A stretch of DNA of 27,555 nt. Origin: a virus. Shown one piece after another: positions 18,326 to 27,555 of this stretch. The notes beneath the pieces are model-generated. The model was not told where the DNA came from. It did not search any database and saw nothing but the letters and a program-made list of their open reading frames with translations. Position numbers and translations under genes: made by a program. Location of the stretch: positions 1 through 27,555 of IMG/VR virus record IMGVR_UViG_3300048586_000253; one strand, given 5' to 3'. Within the stretch, counting starts at the first letter, position 1; each line of letters starts with the position of its first letter.

Positions 18326-18328
18326 GAG

Positions 18329-18399
18329 CTGCTCCAGCTGGGGTCGAACCAACACTACCCGGTCCAGAGCCGGGCGTCCTGCCATTAGACTACAGAGCA
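18329..18399 (-). tRNA. tRNA-Gln (anticodon CTG)
   Basis: A 71-nt cloverleaf. The acceptor stem (18399-18393 with 18336-18330) has 7 pairs including G-U. The D arm is GTC/GAC with an AATGGCA loop. The anticodon stem is CCCGG/CCGGG with loop CTCTGGA, giving anticodon CTG (Gln, codon CAG). The T arm is GTTGG/CCAGC with loop TTCGACC. Discriminator is G at 18329. No CCA is encoded. It would supply the CAG codon favoured in a GC-rich genome. Confidence 0.9.
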
Positions 18400-20576: not shown

Positions 20577-21494
20577 TTAGACGGCGGGCTTGCCTGCGTC
20601 GATGACGCCGGCAGGGTTGTAGTTCTGGACTGTGACGTGGCCCGCCTCGAGCGAGCCGTCGAGGAGACGGAGGCTCGGGAAGGGGCCGATACCGATCGTA
20701 GCACGCATCGGCTCGGCTGTGCGCCACTGCTCGAGCTGGAGCTCGGCGGGGGCTACCTGGTTCTCGTAGACGTGGACGTCACCCGCGGACCAGACCAGCC
20801 GGCCGGCGCGCACCTGGCGGCCAGTGATGAGCGTGAGCTCACGGGCCACGGCGTGCGCGAGGAAGCCGGCCTGGAACAGGTCAAACGGGACGCCCAGCAT
20901 CATGTCGGCCGAGCGCTGGTAGACGTGGAGCTCGAGCCGGTCGTAGTTCGGCCCGCGGAGGCTGAACTGGAAGAGGACCATGCAGGGCTCGAGCGCCATG
21001 TCGCGGAGCTCAGGGACCGACCACAGCGAGACGACTGCCCGGCGCGTGTCGGGGGCCTCGACCAGGCGCTTGACCACCTCGGTGAGCTGGTCGACGCCGT
21101 ACGTCCCGACGGGCTGGCCGTACGGGTCACCCCAGGACGGCGGCTCGATCTGGAGGAGGGAGCCGCCGGCGTCACGCCACTGTGCCCCGTAGGTCGGGCC
21201 GATCTGGCCGGCCGGGTTGGCCCAGGCCTTCCAGATGCCAGCCATCTGCGGGGAGGACTTGGCGAGCTCGTTGACGTCGGTCGAGCCGGAGAGCATCCAC
21301 AGGAACTCCCGCAGCGCCATCTTCCACGGTACGGCCTTGGAGGTGATGAGCGGGACCTTCATGCCTGAGAGGTCGAAGACCAGCGGGTCGGGCGCGAAGA
21401 GGCTGCGGGTGCCGGTGCCGGTGCGGTCGGTGCGGACCTCGCCGTAGTGGAGGACGGCCCAGAGGAGGTCCTCGTAGCTGGTGAACTGAGTCAT
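20577..21494 (-). CDS. ThyA-family pyrimidine C5 transferase, probably dCMP hydroxymethylase or methylase
   Basis: 305 residues with a full ThyA fold: DRTGTGTRSLF at 23-33, Glu63 in LREFLWML, GPTYGAQWR at 99-107, catalytic Cys171 in LEPCMVLFQF, QRSADMMLGVPFD at 193-205, and GDVHVYEN at 239-245. Thymidylate synthases have Asn at the last position of the PFN motif (E. coli Asn177), which selects dUMP. Here it is Asp205. In T4 dCMP hydroxymethylase the same position is Asp, and Asn-to-Asp in Lactobacillus casei TS favours dCMP methylation (published work from the Santi laboratory). The His usually after Cys is Met. So the likely reaction uses dCMP and methylene-tetrahydrofolate. GAGAGG precedes the ATG at 21494. 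Calling it thymidylate synthase is possible but less likely. Confidence 0.85.
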   Translation of the reverse strand: MTQFTSYEDLLWAVLHYGEVRTDRTGTGTRSLFAPDPLVFDLSGMKVPLITSKAVPWKMALREFLWMLSGSTDVNELAKSSPQMAGIWKAWANPAGQIGPTYGAQWRDAGGSLLQIEPPSWGDPYGQPVGTYGVDQLTEVVKRLVEAPDTRRAVVSLWSVPELRDMALEPCMVLFQFSLRGPNYDRLELHVYQRSADMMLGVPFDLFQAGFLAHAVARELTLITGRQVRAGRLVWSAGDVHVYENQVAPAELQLEQWRTAEPMRATIGIGPFPSLRLLDGSLEAGHVTVQNYNPAGVIDAGKPAV

Positions 21495-21868
21495 GCGTTC
21501 CTCTCGGGGTCGTCCCAGTAGCGGAGGGTGTACACGCCGGGGTTGAGGCTGTACCAGTTCAGGATGCGGCGGCGGAGCCAGCGCCTGATCTGGCCGAGGT
21601 CCTCCTCGCGCTTGCCGGAGTAGGCGAGTATCACGCTCTCGTTGCCCTCGGGGTCGACGTGGCTGCCGACGACGCGGTGGCGGCGGGAGCGCTTCTCGTA
21701 GGCCTTCTTGAACGCCCAGAAGTTGGACGGGCTGATGAAGGACCCGGGAGGGCCCGTCAGGACGGCGAGCGTGGTCACCCGCTTCCGGATGGCCGAGGGC
21801 ATGTCGAAGGACTCGACCACCACCCCCGGCATCCCGAAGAGGCGCTTCACGGGCTTGGACGCGGTCAC
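21491..21868 (-). CDS. Protein of unknown function in the nucleotide-metabolism block
   Basis: 125 residues from GTG 21868, overlapping the upstream stop as GTGA and the ThyA-family start as ATGA. Basic, with SPSNFWAFKKAYEKRSRRHRVVGSHVDPEGNESVILAYSGKREEDLGQIRRWLRRRI in the middle. No known motif is obvious. Its tight coupling with the ThyA-family gene suggests a related role, which cannot be named. Confidence 0.7.
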   Translation of the reverse strand: MTASKPVKRLFGMPGVVVESFDMPSAIRKRVTTLAVLTGPPGSFISPSNFWAFKKAYEKRSRRHRVVGSHVDPEGNESVILAYSGKREEDLGQIRRWLRRRILNWYSLNPGVYTLRYWDDPERNA

Positions 21869-22200
21869 GCCACCCACTCCCACGCGGTTGCGACCTCTGC
21901 GTCCTCCACGTCCTCGCCGGCCAGGAGGGCCACGAAGTTGCGGTGGGTCAGGGTGGTCGTGCGGACAGGCCCGCCCGAGGAACGGCCGTCGGCCAGGGAG
22001 CCGGTCAGGTACCAGCGCTCATTGACGAAGATGGCGGCGTAGGTCAGGCGCTGCTTGCGGACCACCACGTTGGTGTCCCGCATGGGGTCGTACTCGCCGG
22101 CGACGACGCGGACGAAGCGCACGACGGTGCCGGCTGCGGGGCCGGCCTCACGCTCGACGGCCTTGCGGAGGGCCTTGGCTGCGGGGGATACGTTGCTCAC
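21865..22200 (-). CDS. Protein of unknown function in the nucleotide-metabolism block
   Basis: 111 residues from GTG 22200, with AAGGAG eight bases upstream and GTGA overlap with dihydrofolate reductase. Sequence contains a basic strand-rich section (TVVRFVRVVAGEYDPMRDTNVVVRKQRLTYAAIFVNERWYLTG). No recognised family. Its position between DHFR and the ThyA-family enzyme makes it a candidate partner. Confidence 0.7.
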   Translation of the reverse strand: MSNVSPAAKALRKAVEREAGPAAGTVVRFVRVVAGEYDPMRDTNVVVRKQRLTYAAIFVNERWYLTGSLADGRSSGGPVRTTTLTHRNFVALLAGEDVEDAEVATAWEWVA

Positions 22201-22802
22201 TTGGTGTTCTCCTTCTTTGGGGCCAGGGTCACGTAGGTGGCCTGGTCGGTGATGCGCTGATCGATGGTCTTGCCGAGGGCCGCGAGGCTGACGAGCCCCT
22301 CCTCCACCTGACCGGTGAAGGGGGCGCGGGTGTCGCCCTCGTAGGCCCCTGCAATGAGGGTGATCCAGGCCTCGTCGGTGAGAGGCCAGAAGAGCTCGAT
22401 GACCGAGGGACCGCCGACCACCGCGACGTCCTTGCCCGGGAACCAGACATGGAGGGCGCGCAGGAAGGCCTCGGCGTCCTCGGTGTCGTCGACCCAGGGG
22501 ATGCCCTGGACCATCACGCCGCGCGCCTGCTCGTGGAGCTCGTGGAAGCGCGAGGTCAGGACGACGATCGGGCGCTCCTCGGTCGAGCGGCGGGTCTTGA
22601 GGACGGCCGGCAGGGACTCGAAGGTCCTGGAGCCCATGATGAGGACGCGATCACGCGTCGCCTCACGGAAGCGGCGGAGGTCCTCGGACTGGCGGGGCCA
22701 GGGGAGCCCGCCGTCGCGGCCGATGACGATGGCGTCACCGGACGGGGTCACCGCCTCGGCCCATACGGCCCGGACGTGCGGGATGGTCTTGTCAGTGGTC
22801 AT
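22197..22802 (-). CDS. Dihydrofolate reductase
   Basis: 201 residues. The fold signals are clear: AIVIGRDGGLPWPRQSEDLRRF at 24-45, with Asp41 matching the catalytic acid, then RVLIMGSRTFESLP (52-65) of the cofactor region, and VVGGPSVIELFWPLTDEAWITLI (128-150) with the Gly-Gly dinucleotide-binding turn. The enzyme reduces dihydrofolate to tetrahydrofolate with NADPH. Thymidylate synthase or a dCMP methylase produces dihydrofolate, so its place two genes upstream of the ThyA-family enzyme fits. A pure hydroxymethylase would not need it. The start at 22802 lies 11 bases inside the upstream gene. Confidence 0.88.
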   Translation of the reverse strand: MTTDKTIPHVRAVWAEAVTPSGDAIVIGRDGGLPWPRQSEDLRRFREATRDRVLIMGSRTFESLPAVLKTRRSTEERPIVVLTSRFHELHEQARGVMVQGIPWVDDTEDAEAFLRALHVWFPGKDVAVVGGPSVIELFWPLTDEAWITLIAGAYEGDTRAPFTGQVEEGLVSLAALGKTIDQRITDQATYVTLAPKKENTK

Positions 22803-23097
22803 AGGTCTGTCCGATCTGCGAGTAGGTTGTTGCCTGAACGGGGATGTACCACTCCACGGTTCCGCCGATCTTCTCGGCCCAGCGGTCCGCGGCTTCGCGG
22901 TCGGAGTGGGTGCTGAACTGCGAGCCGTCCCGGGTGCGGACGAGCCAGAACGGCTTGACCGGCCTCGGGTCCAGGACGCCGGCGTCGCGGTACTCCTGGA
23001 GGGTGGTGAACTTCTTGCGGGCAGGCTCGACGTCGATCGCCGGGCCCTTGAGCCTGTGAGAGCGGCCCGACGCGGTGGGATCAGAGGGCTTGTTCAT
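22792..23097 (-). CDS. Protein of unknown function, probably translated from a leaderless mRNA
   Basis: 101 residues from the ATG at 23097. A -10-like TAGGTT lies at 23109-23104, exactly six bases before the ATG, with no ribosome site, as in leaderless actinobacterial genes. The protein has a basic N-terminus, a DGSQFSTHSDREAADRWAEKIGGTVEWYI segment and no known motif. Starting here, the genes run through DHFR to the ThyA-family enzyme. Confidence 0.65.
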   Translation of the reverse strand: MNKPSDPTASGRSHRLKGPAIDVEPARKKFTTLQEYRDAGVLDPRPVKPFWLVRTRDGSQFSTHSDREAADRWAEKIGGTVEWYIPVQATTYSQIGQTYDH

Positions 23098-23103
23098 GAC
23101 TAC

Positions 23104-23109
23104 AACCTA
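23104..23109 (-). promoter_or_regulatory. -10 box of a leaderless transcript (TAGGTT)
   Basis: TAGGTT on the minus strand, six bases from the ATG at 23097. The same spacing is seen at 25663-25668. No clear -35 box. Confidence 0.5.
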
Positions 23110-23115
23110 GCGCGT

Positions 23116-23145
23116 GGGGGCGGGAACCAGAGCGGCCCCGCCCCC
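23116..23145 (-). terminator. GC-rich hairpin between two transcription units
   Basis: The arms 23116-23124 and 23137-23145 (GGGGGCGGG/CCCGCCCCC) pair over 9 bp with a 12-base loop. It lies after the stop of the gene at 23163-23651 and just upstream of the leaderless promoter. There is no U-run, so termination may depend on the stem only. Confidence 0.5.
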
Positions 23146-23162
23146 GGGACTCGGCGGGAGCC

Positions 23163-23651
23163 TCAGTCCTCTTCGGTGTCGACGGCCTGCCCGGAGAGGG
23201 CGGCGAGCTCCTCGTCCGTGAGCTCGCGCTCGGGGTCGGAGAAGTCGAGGCGACCGTAGATCTGCTGGAGGGCGTCCTGGACGGACATCCCCAGGACGGC
23301 GACGAAGAAGCCGACCTCGTGGGCGTTGTCGTAGGCCGCGTCCAGCACGACCTTCGAGTAGACGCGGACAGCGAGCTGGAGCGCCTCCTCCGGGGTCTCG
23401 GGCTTCGGGACGCGCCCGGCCTCGACTTCGGCGTTGATGGCGGTGAGGATCGCGCCCTCGTCGTTCAGCATGTACTCGAGCGACTGGTAGTGCGCCCGGG
23501 TGTGCTGGAGCTCCATCTGCAGGTGCTCGACGTCGCCCGACTGCAGGGCGTCCGTCACCATGTTGAAGGTGCGAGTGGACGGCAGCGCGCCGGCGGTGCG
23601 GGGGGCGAGGTCCTCGATGGCGTCGATCTTGTCAGCGTACGTGGTGGACAT
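23163..23651 (-). CDS. Protein of unknown function, helical
   Basis: 162 residues, with AAGGAG before the ATG at 23651. Mostly helical, with charged ends. Segments include FNMVTDALQSGDVEHLQMELQHTRAHYQSLEYMLNDEGAILTAINAEVEAG (about 29-79) and a hydrophobic VGFFVAVLGMSVQDALQQIYGRL. It could form coiled coils. No family recognised. It is the first gene after the regulatory gap at 23652-23858. Confidence 0.7.
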   Translation of the reverse strand: MSTTYADKIDAIEDLAPRTAGALPSTRTFNMVTDALQSGDVEHLQMELQHTRAHYQSLEYMLNDEGAILTAINAEVEAGRVPKPETPEEALQLAVRVYSKVVLDAAYDNAHEVGFFVAVLGMSVQDALQQIYGRLDFSDPERELTDEELAALSGQAVDTEED

Positions 23652-23719
23652 GCGGGTTGCTCCTTCTGAGCGAGTTGGTTTGGTGGTGTTCAGTTGTGGG
23701 GTCCTGCGTTGTGGTCTCT

Positions 23720-23725
23720 ACTGTA
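23720..23725 (-). promoter_or_regulatory. Promoter-like motif TACAGT in conserved TAYAGTAGAGA context
   Basis: On the minus strand CTACAGTAGAGACCACAA occurs here, and CGTATAGTAGAGATACAA occurs at 25576-25571. Both precede the first gene of a run, so this is likely a phage promoter family. The -35 is not obvious. Confidence 0.5.
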
Positions 23726-23774
23726 GCGCGTCCGGCGGGACTCTACCAGCGGAGATGCCCGGGAATCGCGTCCA

Positions 23775-23801
23775 GGGCGGTTAGGGCGATTAGGGCGTCG
23801 C
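23775..23801 (+). repeat. Three tandem 9-base GGGCGRTTA-type units
   Basis: Units GGGCGGTTA, GGGCGATTA and GGGCGTCGC follow each other without gaps. The first two differ by one base. The third keeps only GGGCG. They are iteron-like and lie in the regulatory gap. Confidence 0.6.
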
Positions 23802-23814
23802 GTTCCATTACAGC

Positions 23815-23835
23815 CTAAAGGGCGAGGCCCTTTAG
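23815..23835. repeat. Perfect 9-bp hairpin with 3-base loop
   Basis: CTAAAGGGC at 23815-23823 pairs with GCCCTTTAG at 23827-23835 around GAG. On the minus strand it is preceded by TATAGT within about ten bases, and no U-run follows. Operator, attenuator or 5' stem are all possible. Confidence 0.6.
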
Positions 23836-23858
23836 AACTATATAGGAAGCGCGCCACC

Positions 23859-24257
23859 CTACTCGCCCTTTTCGCCCTGAACGGGGCCCCCGGGACGCGG
23901 AACATGCCTCCCGGCAGCATAATCGAGCGTTATGCGGGTGATGACCAGGTCCGGAGGGGCCACCCAGTCAGGGCGCGAAACTACCCTGCGGAGGCGCAGG
24001 CGCCGGGACGCCGGCACCCCCACCGCGGTCATCCAGGCCGTGGGAGGCCTGTCGGACTTCGCCCCGTTGCAGCGGTCGCACGCCGGCACGAGGTTGCGGA
24101 CCTCGTTGGTGCCTCCGAGGCGAGAGGGCACGAAGTGGTCCACGACCATGCCGGCACCGCGCCCACAGTAGACGCAGTGCCAGCGGTGCTTCGGTCCCCA
24201 GCGGGTCTCGGCCAGGCGGACGAGCTCGAGGGACTCGGAGATGGACTTGTGACTCAC
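23859..24257 (-). CDS. HNH endonuclease
   Basis: 132 residues from GTG 24257, overlapping the upstream stop as GTGA. The HNH fold is visible: CVYCGRG (first zinc pair), VVDHFVPSRLGG with the catalytic His, NEVRNLVPACDRCNGAKSD with the second Cys pair and Asn. The C-terminus is basic (SRRLRLRRVVSRPD). Such genes are often mobile, inserting into phage genomes, but no interrupted gene is seen here. The last codons carry GGGCGA twice, in line with the repeats in the gap that follows. Confidence 0.85.
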   Translation of the reverse strand: MSHKSISESLELVRLAETRWGPKHRWHCVYCGRGAGMVVDHFVPSRLGGTNEVRNLVPACDRCNGAKSDRPPTAWMTAVGVPASRRLRLRRVVSRPDWVAPPDLVITRITLDYAAGRHVPRPGGPVQGEKGE

Positions 24258-25674: not shown

Positions 25675-25857
25675 ATGAACAGCAACGAGCGACCCAACAT
25701 CAAGCGCTTCTCGACCGTCCTGATCGACGGTCGCATGGGCGGCAACTTTACGGGGCGGGTCAACCGCTTCGAGGAGGTCTGCCCCGGGCTCTGGTACGTG
25801 CACCTCGTGGGGCACCGCCTCATCTACCCGGTGGCAGACATCCTCGAGGTCCTCTAG
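25675..25857 (+). CDS. Small protein of unknown function on the plus strand, probably leaderless
   Basis: 60 residues from ATG 25675, the only rightward gene. The sequence (FSTVLIDGRMGGNFTGRVNRFEEVCPGLWYVHLVGHRLIYPVADILEVL) looks like a small folded beta-rich protein. It has a TAGAAT box six bases before the ATG. Its stop TAG overlaps the stop of the sigma-like gene on the other strand, both using CTAG at 25854-25857. Function unknown; the position suggests a regulatory role. Confidence 0.65.
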   Translation: MNSNERPNIKRFSTVLIDGRMGGNFTGRVNRFEEVCPGLWYVHLVGHRLIYPVADILEVL

Positions 25858-26579
25858 TCCTCGACCAGCTCCGCCCGCATTTTCTCGAGCGACCGCTGGC
25901 GCCTCTTCTTGACGGCACCGCGGTCCTGCTCGAGGACGCCGGCGACCTCTTCGTCCGACTTGGCCTCTCCGCGGAACCCGTAGGCGAGCTCGATGACGTC
26001 CCGCTCCGCCGGCGACAGCACCGACAGTGCGTGGTGCGCGAGGCGGTAGGTCTCGTCGTCGGGCGTCGGGACCCCTGCACTGTACGGGACGCTGACCCAC
26101 TCCGAGCCGGCATGCGCCAGCGCGTGCTGGATCGCCCGGAAGGTGTTTGCCGTCATGCCCATGGTTGGGGCCAGCTCCGCCGCGCGGACGTAGTCCTGGT
26201 CGGCGGCACGCCAGACCTTGAACCAGCGGTCCAGTGTCCCGCTCGGGACCGCCAGCGCCGTCGCCATCTCGGTGGCCACCCCCCGCAGGATGCTCGGAAG
26301 TACCTGGCTGAGGCGGGTGTACTTCTCCAGGTCGAAGGACTTGACAGCCTCCACGGCCGCGAGCACCAGGTCTGCCTGGAGGTCCTCGACCTGTTCGGCC
26401 GTCATCCCCCGCACCGACGCGCGGGCAGAGTTGGCCGTCTTCTGGAGGATGCCCCGGTACTGCACGAGCAGTGCCCACACAGCTTCGCCGTCGCCGGCCT
26501 GGGCCGCCACGATCAGTGCCCGCTCCTCGAGCAGGGGGAGAGATACGCGGCCAGAGCCGCCCTTGAAGAGCTCGTCCAT
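25854..26579 (-). CDS. Sigma-70-like protein / region 4 helix-turn-helix protein
   Basis: 241 residues from the ATG at 26579 (TGATG overlap). Residues about 24-106 resemble sigma region 2 (AAQAGDGEAVWALLVQYRGILQKTA..., VEDLQADLVLAAVEAVKSFDLEKYTRL). A middle part 110-155 could be another helix-turn-helix. Residues about 183-238 match sigma region 4 (ALSVLSPAERDVIELAYGFRG, then SDEEVAGVLEQDRGAVKKRRQRSLEKMR). It would direct host RNA polymerase to phage promoters. It could also be only a sigma-like DNA-binding protein. Region 2.4 is not clear. Confidence 0.75.
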   Translation of the reverse strand: MDELFKGGSGRVSLPLLEERALIVAAQAGDGEAVWALLVQYRGILQKTANSARASVRGMTAEQVEDLQADLVLAAVEAVKSFDLEKYTRLSQVLPSILRGVATEMATALAVPSGTLDRWFKVWRAADQDYVRAAELAPTMGMTANTFRAIQHALAHAGSEWVSVPYSAGVPTPDDETYRLAHHALSVLSPAERDVIELAYGFRGEAKSDEEVAGVLEQDRGAVKKRRQRSLEKMRAELVED

Positions 26580-26881
26580 CAGCCCTGCCACCTTTCGAAC
26601 GCGGTGTTGAGATGGCGCTCGGCCGCCTGGAGGGTGCGGCCGGCGCGCTCGAGAGCTACCTCCGCCTCGAGGACGGCGGCGCGGAGCGCGAGCCGGCGCG
26701 CGTCGACCACGATTGACGGCGTCGGGTCGCTGGTCAGGCCCTTGCTGCGCTCGGTCGTGTCCTCCTTGGGGACGGGCGACTTGCCGGCGCGCCACTGGGC
26801 GTCACCCACGTCGGCGACGAGCTGGCGCACGCGCAGGTAGGTGGCCCCGAAGGCCTCGAGGGTCGTTGGGGTCGCGGTCAC
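26579..26881 (-). CDS. Small helical protein of unknown function
   Basis: 100 residues from GTG 26881, which overlaps the upstream stop as GTGA and has AAGGAG eight bases before. The C-terminal half (RRLALRAAVLEAEVALERAGRTLQAAERHLNTAFERWQG) is a coiled-coil helix; the middle has TSDPTPSIVVDARRLALR, a pattern common in actinophage proteins of unknown function. It overlaps the sigma-like start as TGATG. Confidence 0.7.
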   Translation of the reverse strand: MTATPTTLEAFGATYLRVRQLVADVGDAQWRAGKSPVPKEDTTERSKGLTSDPTPSIVVDARRLALRAAVLEAEVALERAGRTLQAAERHLNTAFERWQG

Positions 26882-27075
26882 TTGTTGTACTCCTTCAGCT
26901 TGGTGGTCCAGACCTTACAGTCCGTGCAGGCGATGCGCTCGCCGACGTTGGTGATGCCGTCGAGGTCGATCCTCTGCAGGACGTACCTCTTCAGCGCGGG
27001 GTTGAAACAATGGGGGCAGAGGCCGTCGACCTCGGGGGTGTCGCGGAAGTGCGCGTACTGGTGGATTGCCGCCAT
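26878..27075 (-). CDS. Small zinc-ribbon protein
   Basis: 65 residues from the ATG at 27075, which overlaps the DNA polymerase stop as TGATG. Cys-Pro-His-Cys at 20-23 and Cys-Thr-Asp-Cys at 50-53 form two pairs separated by a strand-rich part, the zinc-ribbon pattern. It may bind DNA or the polymerase. A longer frame exists upstream inside the polymerase gene, but it has no ribosome site. Confidence 0.7.
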   Translation of the reverse strand: MAAIHQYAHFRDTPEVDGLCPHCFNPALKRYVLQRIDLDGITNVGERIACTDCKVWTTKLKEYNK

Positions 27076-27555
27076 CAGAAGGGCCTCTCTGTGAACAGGG
27101 GGGTGTCGAGGGCGGACTTGCCCGGAGGGTGGTAGTCGGGGCCGTGACCCCATGAGAAGCCGTAGACGACGCCGTCGGAATCGAGGCGCATCTCACCGAT
27201 GGAGGTCTCCATCGCCGAGCGGATGGCCTGGGCCACGTCCTCCGCGTCCTCGGTCGGCGCCTGCGCGATCATCTCGTCGTGCACCGGCATCAGGAGGTAC
27301 TCGCCCAGCCCGCCGGTGAAGAGCGCCTCCATGGCGTTCTTCAGGACGTCGGCCGCCGTCGACTGGACCATGTAGTTGATGGCCGCGTAGGTGCGGTCAC
27401 GGTCCAGTGTCAGGATGCGGCCGGTCGGCGAGCGGAGCACCATGCCGTTGCGCTTGGCATCCCGCTGGAGCTTGTTCGAGTACCGCTTGATTTCCGGGTA
27501 GACGCGGTTGTACGCGCGGACGACCGCGGTGCTCTGCGCTACCGAGATGCCCAGC
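27075..27555 (-). CDS. DNA polymerase I (family A), C-terminal part
   Basis: The frame is open at the window end; 159 residues of the C-terminus are present. YAAINYMVQSTAADVLKNAM is part of the family A fingers/palm segment (the motif seen as NxxxQgtaADilK), and LLMPVHDEMIAQ holds motif C with the catalytic Asp in HDE. The stop is TGA at 27077-27075. It would replicate the phage DNA. It is the most upstream gene of the leftward unit in view; the N-terminus lies outside the window. Confidence 0.92.
   Translation of the reverse strand, partial: LGISVAQSTAVVRAYNRVYPEIKRYSNKLQRDAKRNGMVLRSPTGRILTLDRDRTYAAINYMVQSTAADVLKNAMEALFTGGLGEYLLMPVHDEMIAQAPTEDAEDVAQAIRSAMETSIGEMRLDSDGVVYGFSWGHGPDYHPPGKSALDTPLFTERPF

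Follow-up and report, generated by a model that had tools for sequence, protein, structure and literature searches.

To our knowledge, replacement of cytosine by 5-methylcytosine across a whole genome is known chiefly from phage XP12. All cytosines of XP12 are 5-methylcytosine, and AXL1, one of its relatives, is resistant to most enzymes whose sites contain G/C (PMC9206674). The XP12 dCMP methyltransferase lineage comprises Pamexvirus/Bosavirus (AXL1, PaMx28) and also RcSimone-Hastad and Achromobacter JWX. Its members share a ThyA-family enzyme with Asp at the position of E. coli Asn177, 5-methyl-dCMP as predicted or known product and, usually, genes for dihydrofolate reductase (DHFR) and a pyrophosphohydrolase alongside. 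In AXL1 the DHFR, dCMP deaminase, ThyA and pyrophosphohydrolase genes lie side by side (PMC9206674), and in XP12 relatives we found the D177 ThyA gene adjacent to those for DHFR and a pyrophosphohydrolase.

Residue 177 (E. coli numbering) selects the nucleobase. According to the account of work by Liu and Santi 1992 and others given in PMC8670742, an N-to-D change at this position makes thymidylate synthase a dCMP methylase. C-modified and unmodified phage contigs are best told apart by two sites, 177 and 147 (PMC8670742). In T4-type dCMP hydroxymethylases the attacking water is activated by an Asp, or in some by a Glu, that precedes the catalytic Cys by three residues; thymidylate synthases have Leu there, and the D145N variant of T4 gp42 gives no hydroxymethyl product (PMC6400193).

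Here we describe an actinophage enzyme annotated as a thymidylate synthase which is probably a dCMP methylase, serving a precursor pathway for 5-methylcytosine phage DNA. XP12 is its functionally closest known system.

The ThyA-family gene and its surroundings

The window, i.e. the whole 27.5-kb stretch of DNA analysed (27,555 nucleotides), comes from a Microbacterium phage that belongs to the Dismasvirus group (cluster EB of SEA-PHAGES). Genomes in this group measure about 40-42 kb. Judged against Jovita and Dismas, the window spans the genes that lead from the polymerase I end past ThyA and on round to the tail genes; missing from it is the stretch with the exonuclease, pyrophosphohydrolase, kinase and primase genes. 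The contig crosses the ends of the related linear records (from the tRNA/HNH end to terminase) with about 14 kb missing, a layout consistent with a genome that is circular or permuted. A tRNA-Gln(ctg) at 18328-18399 (minus strand) lies near the genome end, as it does in Dismas and Lahqtemish. Just downstream of the DNA polymerase, a sigma-factor-like protein is encoded at 25854-26795 (minus strand; phrog_351, E = 2e-21), at a position labelled 'DNA binding protein' or sigma factor in relatives.

Table 1. Features of the ThyA region of the window.
Feature	Position	Strand	Remarks
ThyA-family enzyme, predicted dCMP (C5) methylase	20577..21494	-	Cys171, Met172, Asp205, Leu168
Asp205 codon, nucleobase-selecting position (E. 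coli Asn177)	20880..20882	-	alignment
Cys171 and Met172 codons (E. coli Cys146-His147)	20979..20984	-	alignment
Leu168 codon, three before catalytic Cys	20991..20993	-	Asp/Glu there in T4-type hydroxymethylases (PMC6400193)
130-aa protein, function not assigned	21491..21883	-	stop overlaps ThyA start (ATGA)
111-aa protein, function not assigned	21865..22200	-	phrog_1342; between DHFR and ThyA
Dihydrofolate reductase	22197..22802	-	PF00186, E = 6e-19; phrog_316
Phage DNA polymerase I, C-terminal part	27075..27443	-	PF00476, E = 7e-13; near contig end

An earlier note on this DNA, which gave no strand, had drawn attention to the ThyA-family gene. The gene lies on the minus strand, where 21494..20577 translates without interruption into a protein of 305 aa; on the plus strand the reading frame of this interval is interrupted. 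The protein matches PF00303 (E = 2.8e-65, residues 6-298) and PHROG 160, and the catalytic Cys, Arg, Glu and His/Tyr are present, placing it in the ThyA superfamily. Its AlphaFold2 model (mean pLDDT 85.5) shows the fold of thymidylate synthases, and its best PDB matches by TM-score are thymidylate synthases. The nearest named relatives of the protein come from Microbacterium phages, mostly of the genus Dismasvirus (66-74% identical), and all of these are labelled 'thymidylate synthase' in GenBank.

That label could be taken at face value: an ordinary thymidylate synthase tolerating Asp177 would act alongside DHFR, dUTPase and a TMK to raise dTTP in the infected cell. The Pfam, PHROGs and structure matches, all to thymidylate synthase, agree with this, as does an identity of about 40% to bacterial ThyA. 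The fold, the folate-side and C-terminal residues and Leu143 are common to the window enzyme and canonical ThyA (E. coli, Microbacterium, M. tuberculosis), and DHFR, a pyrophosphohydrolase or dUTPase and a TMK-like kinase fit ordinary dTTP synthesis equally well. Discrimination rests on residues 177 and 147 and on the association with the kinase, on which grounds we consider the ordinary synthase unlikely.

Residues 177 and 147 are changed throughout the phage group

In an alignment that includes E. coli ThyA, T4 gp42 and relatives from phages, Cys171 corresponds to C146 of the E. coli enzyme, Met172 to H147 and Asp205 to N177. The earlier note's reading of Asp at the base-selecting position, and of Met in place of His after the catalytic Cys, is thus borne out. 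Other catalytic residues are retained: Arg24 (R21), Glu63 (E58), Trp88 (W80), Tyr102 (Y94), Arg151/152 (R126/127), Arg194-Ser195 (R166-S167) and His241/Tyr243 (H207/Y209).

Our survey covered 188 rows of the ThyA family, taken from bacterial genomes as well as from phages and viral contigs. Met147 and Asp177 occur together in 18/18 distinct enzymes of the group (Microbacterium and Curtobacterium phages, metagenomes), and His147 and Asn177 in 164/164 canonical ThyA rows; the scan patterns left residue 177 free, and at 147 one of the two accepted no residue other than M or H. Other members of the group, Curtobacterium phages included, are 58-74% identical to the window enzyme. Because both changes are found in every distinct group sequence and the canonical pair in every canonical row, the M147 and D177 substitutions are conserved and not due to chance. 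The Asn177 of canonical thymidylate synthase is Asp here and in all relatives, and its His147 is Met in all 18.

These changes argue against an ordinary thymidylate synthase. D177 is fixed across the group, it is the residue which in the literature account cited above switches specificity to dCMP, and it is joined by a second change at 147, the other site marking C-modified contigs. The group resembles the engineered L. casei/E. coli N229D/N177D dCMP methylase in its thymidylate synthase scaffold, base-site Asp and, as predicted, methyl-type chemistry; it differs in being natural, with a co-varying H147M and partner genes. A shift of the window enzyme from dUMP to dCMP, as the earlier note had proposed, is well supported by sequence, because D177 and M147 are fixed and because a linked kinase has distant relatives beside D177 enzymes (see below).

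Methylation is favoured over hydroxymethylation

The earlier note had left open whether the product would be 5-hydroxymethyl- or 5-methyl-dCMP. D177 is common to T4 gp42, the viral-contig enzymes of its type and the window enzyme, and could point to a gp42-type hydroxymethylase making 5-hydroxymethyl-dCMP. The remaining diagnostic positions do not follow T4. Residue 143 is Leu168 in the window and Leu or Ile in all 18 group members, as in thymidylate synthase, in place of the water-activating Asp/Glu whose loss in T4 D145N abolishes the hydroxymethyl product (PMC6400193). The position of T4 Ser94 is Pro in the group, again as in thymidylate synthase, where a T4-type enzyme would have Ser/Thr. 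At 147 the group has Met, compared with Thr in 29/29 hydroxymethylase-type enzymes found beside kinase homologues. Asp177 without a water-activating Asp/Glu at 143 is instead the combination of dCMP methylases of the XP12 functional class.

The neighbouring DHFR gene is a further feature of this class. In methyl transfer, methylene-tetrahydrofolate is converted to dihydrofolate, which hydroxymethylation does not yield. A methylating enzyme thus makes DHFR useful. In the window, DHFR, two small proteins and ThyA form a run with overlaps of 4, 19 and 4 bases. In Stromboli DHFR directly precedes the ThyA-family enzyme. Each of the group's 94 Microbacterium records has a DHFR relative, and the gene was found in 14/14 Microbacterium-group records tested and 3/4 XP12-lineage relatives tested. 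It was found in 0/31 contigs with a distant kinase homologue, of which 29 carry the hydroxymethylase signature, the contigs often being fragments. No PF00186 DHFR was detected in the Curtobacterium phages SunnyD and CliffHanger, and both keep the D177/M147 enzyme and the kinase. Because the kinase contigs are often fragments and the groups compared are lineages, this distribution is consistent support and not independent replication. In the deposited records, gene 58 of PP358746 (TukTuk), a DHFR, is labelled 'thymidylate synthase'.

Because of Leu/Ile at 143 and the DHFR gene in the same overlapping run, the sequence favours 5-methyl-dCMP as product, and for the same reasons hydroxymethylation is placed second. 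The window group also stands apart from T4-type enzymes in the tree described below. On this evidence a gp42-type hydroxymethylase seems quite improbable, even though distant relatives of the partner kinase occur beside enzymes with the hydroxymethylase signature.

A TMK-fold kinase accompanies D177 enzymes

The earlier note expected a kinase and saw none. This is correct for the window; complete relatives, however, carry one in the part of the genome missing from it. There a 'thymidylate kinase' gene directly follows a MazG- or dUTPase_2-type NTP pyrophosphohydrolase, and both lie upstream of the DNA polymerase I part, beyond the window end. From these relatives we infer both genes for the window phage. 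Kinase and ThyA each occur in 98 records with identical host tallies (94 Microbacterium and 4 Curtobacterium, RefSeq/GenBank duplicates included). The kinase encoded by gene 32 of MZ820083 (Doobus) is labelled 'thymidylate synthase'.

A profile of the kinase only recovered 38 viral contigs, 31 of them with distant homologues (20-36% identity). In 29/31 a ThyA-family gene adjoins the kinase (median gap 183 bases, maximum 1610), and 29/29 of these ThyA proteins carry the hydroxymethylase signature (Asp143, Thr147 and Asp177). At 70% identity they fall into 21 clusters, at 50% into 10. The two exceptions are a contig whose kinase resembles a conventional thymidylate kinase (L218) and one with 199 bases of sequence ahead of the kinase, on the side on which a ThyA gene would be expected by analogy (L219). 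Among 50 contigs with canonical ThyA there were only 2 weak kinase matches, neither near the ThyA gene. The distant relatives of the kinase thus keep company with D177 enzymes, and none was found next to an H147/N177 enzyme, a further point against an ordinary thymidylate synthase.

The modelled kinase (pLDDT 92) has a TMK fold. A PDB sequence search gave only one clear match, YorR of SPbeta (2axp, E = 2e-6), and a structure search returned thymidylate kinases with moderate TM-score; nucleotide specificity is not readable from the fold. Because the kinase is associated with Asp177 enzymes from two distinct lineages of ThyA, it would most simply act on 5-substituted dCMP. This association is the strongest evidence beyond the active-site residues. 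A kinase homologue was not found in four XP12-lineage records or in T4, and is therefore not needed by every D177 enzyme.

In diverse IMG/VR contigs, the TMK-fold kinase and D143/T147/D177 ThyA recur as a compact module, often with a MazG-like pyrophosphohydrolase near the pair. It is likely a 5-hydroxymethyl-dCMP module, and may mark cytosine-modifying phages.

Phylogeny favours an independent origin

In a maximum-likelihood tree the group forms one clade (100/100) nested within canonical thymidylate synthases. Apart from it lie the clades of the T4-type enzymes (100/98) and of the XP12 lineage (100/99); T4 gp42 and some hydroxymethylase-type rows have long branches. Common descent of the group with the XP12 lineage, represented by relatives as stand-ins for XP12 itself, had a p-AU of 0.006 and was rejected. 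One clade uniting all D177 enzymes was not rejected (p-AU 0.35), which also tempers the separation from T4-type enzymes as an argument against hydroxymethylation. Because the joint clade with the XP12 lineage is rejected and the all-D177 clade is not, an independent origin of the group's enzyme is favoured but not proven.

The active sites differ as well. AXL1, to which the window enzyme is 26% identical, and three further XP12-lineage relatives have Asn143/Pro147/Asp177, compared with Leu-Ile143/Met147 in the window group. The operon of the XP12 lineage also contains a dCMP deaminase and, as noted, no kinase homologue was found in this lineage. T4 gp42-type enzymes differ in Asp143 and Thr147, and no DHFR was found in their contigs; a distant kinase homologue stands beside many of the viral-contig members.

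A predicted pathway to 5-methylcytosine DNA

Active-site residues, their conservation, DHFR linkage and the kinase and pyrophosphohydrolase genes of relatives are read directly from sequence. From them we infer substrate, product, partner-enzyme specificities, incorporation into DNA and benefit as follows. With Asp205 for Asn and Met172 for His, the enzyme would bind dCMP and not dUMP. A one-carbon unit from methylene-tetrahydrofolate would be added to C5 through Cys171 and reduced by hydride transfer, as in thymidylate synthase, giving 5-methyl-dCMP and dihydrofolate, the latter recycled by the phage DHFR. The NTP pyrophosphohydrolase of complete relatives (MazG or dUTPase_2 type) may supply dCMP and deplete dCTP, and their TMK-fold kinase may phosphorylate 5-methyl-dCMP. 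5-Methyl-dCTP would then enter phage DNA and block cytosine-sensitive restriction. Modified virion DNA and its protective role, both also proposed in the earlier note, are predictions of this scheme; that note's interpretation as a whole is partly supported.

5-Methyl-dCMP could alternatively be a step towards dTMP by deamination, with no role in DNA modification. XP12-lineage and JWX loci do have a dCMP deaminase beside the D177 enzyme. No deaminase is annotated in the complete genomes of Jovita, Dismas, SunnyD, Armstrong and Eden, and a dedicated kinase is conserved instead, making this route very improbable.

We thus retain the dCMP methylase reading. A broader form of it, which we offer tentatively as a possibility somewhat short of probable, is that actinophages evolved a second, independent natural dCMP methylase from a thymidylate synthase that acquired cytosine specificity by N177D and H147M. 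Working with a TMK-fold 5-methyl-dCMP kinase, one of the family that also stands beside hydroxymethylase-type enzymes, it would exchange cytosine for 5-methylcytosine, fully or on a large scale, in the phages of about a hundred deposited records (RefSeq duplicates counted). In the literature searched, outside which many subscription papers lie, we found no report of modified cytosine or of a hydroxymethylase in Microbacterium phages. If the reading is true, cluster EB, a group widely isolated in teaching programmes, replaces cytosine as XP12 does, and 'thymidylate synthase' and 'thymidylate kinase' are misannotated in 98 records. The kinase family could mark cytosine-modifying phages, since its members go with D177 enzymes from two distinct ThyA lineages. 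Cluster EB phages are archived and can be grown on a laboratory host, so the prediction is cheap to check.

The slot before the kinase is occupied by a PRA-PH/MazG protein in Jovita (23039-23692) and by a dUTPase_2 in Dismas (23391-23957). Two pyrophosphohydrolase families in one slot suggest replacement by a functionally equivalent enzyme.
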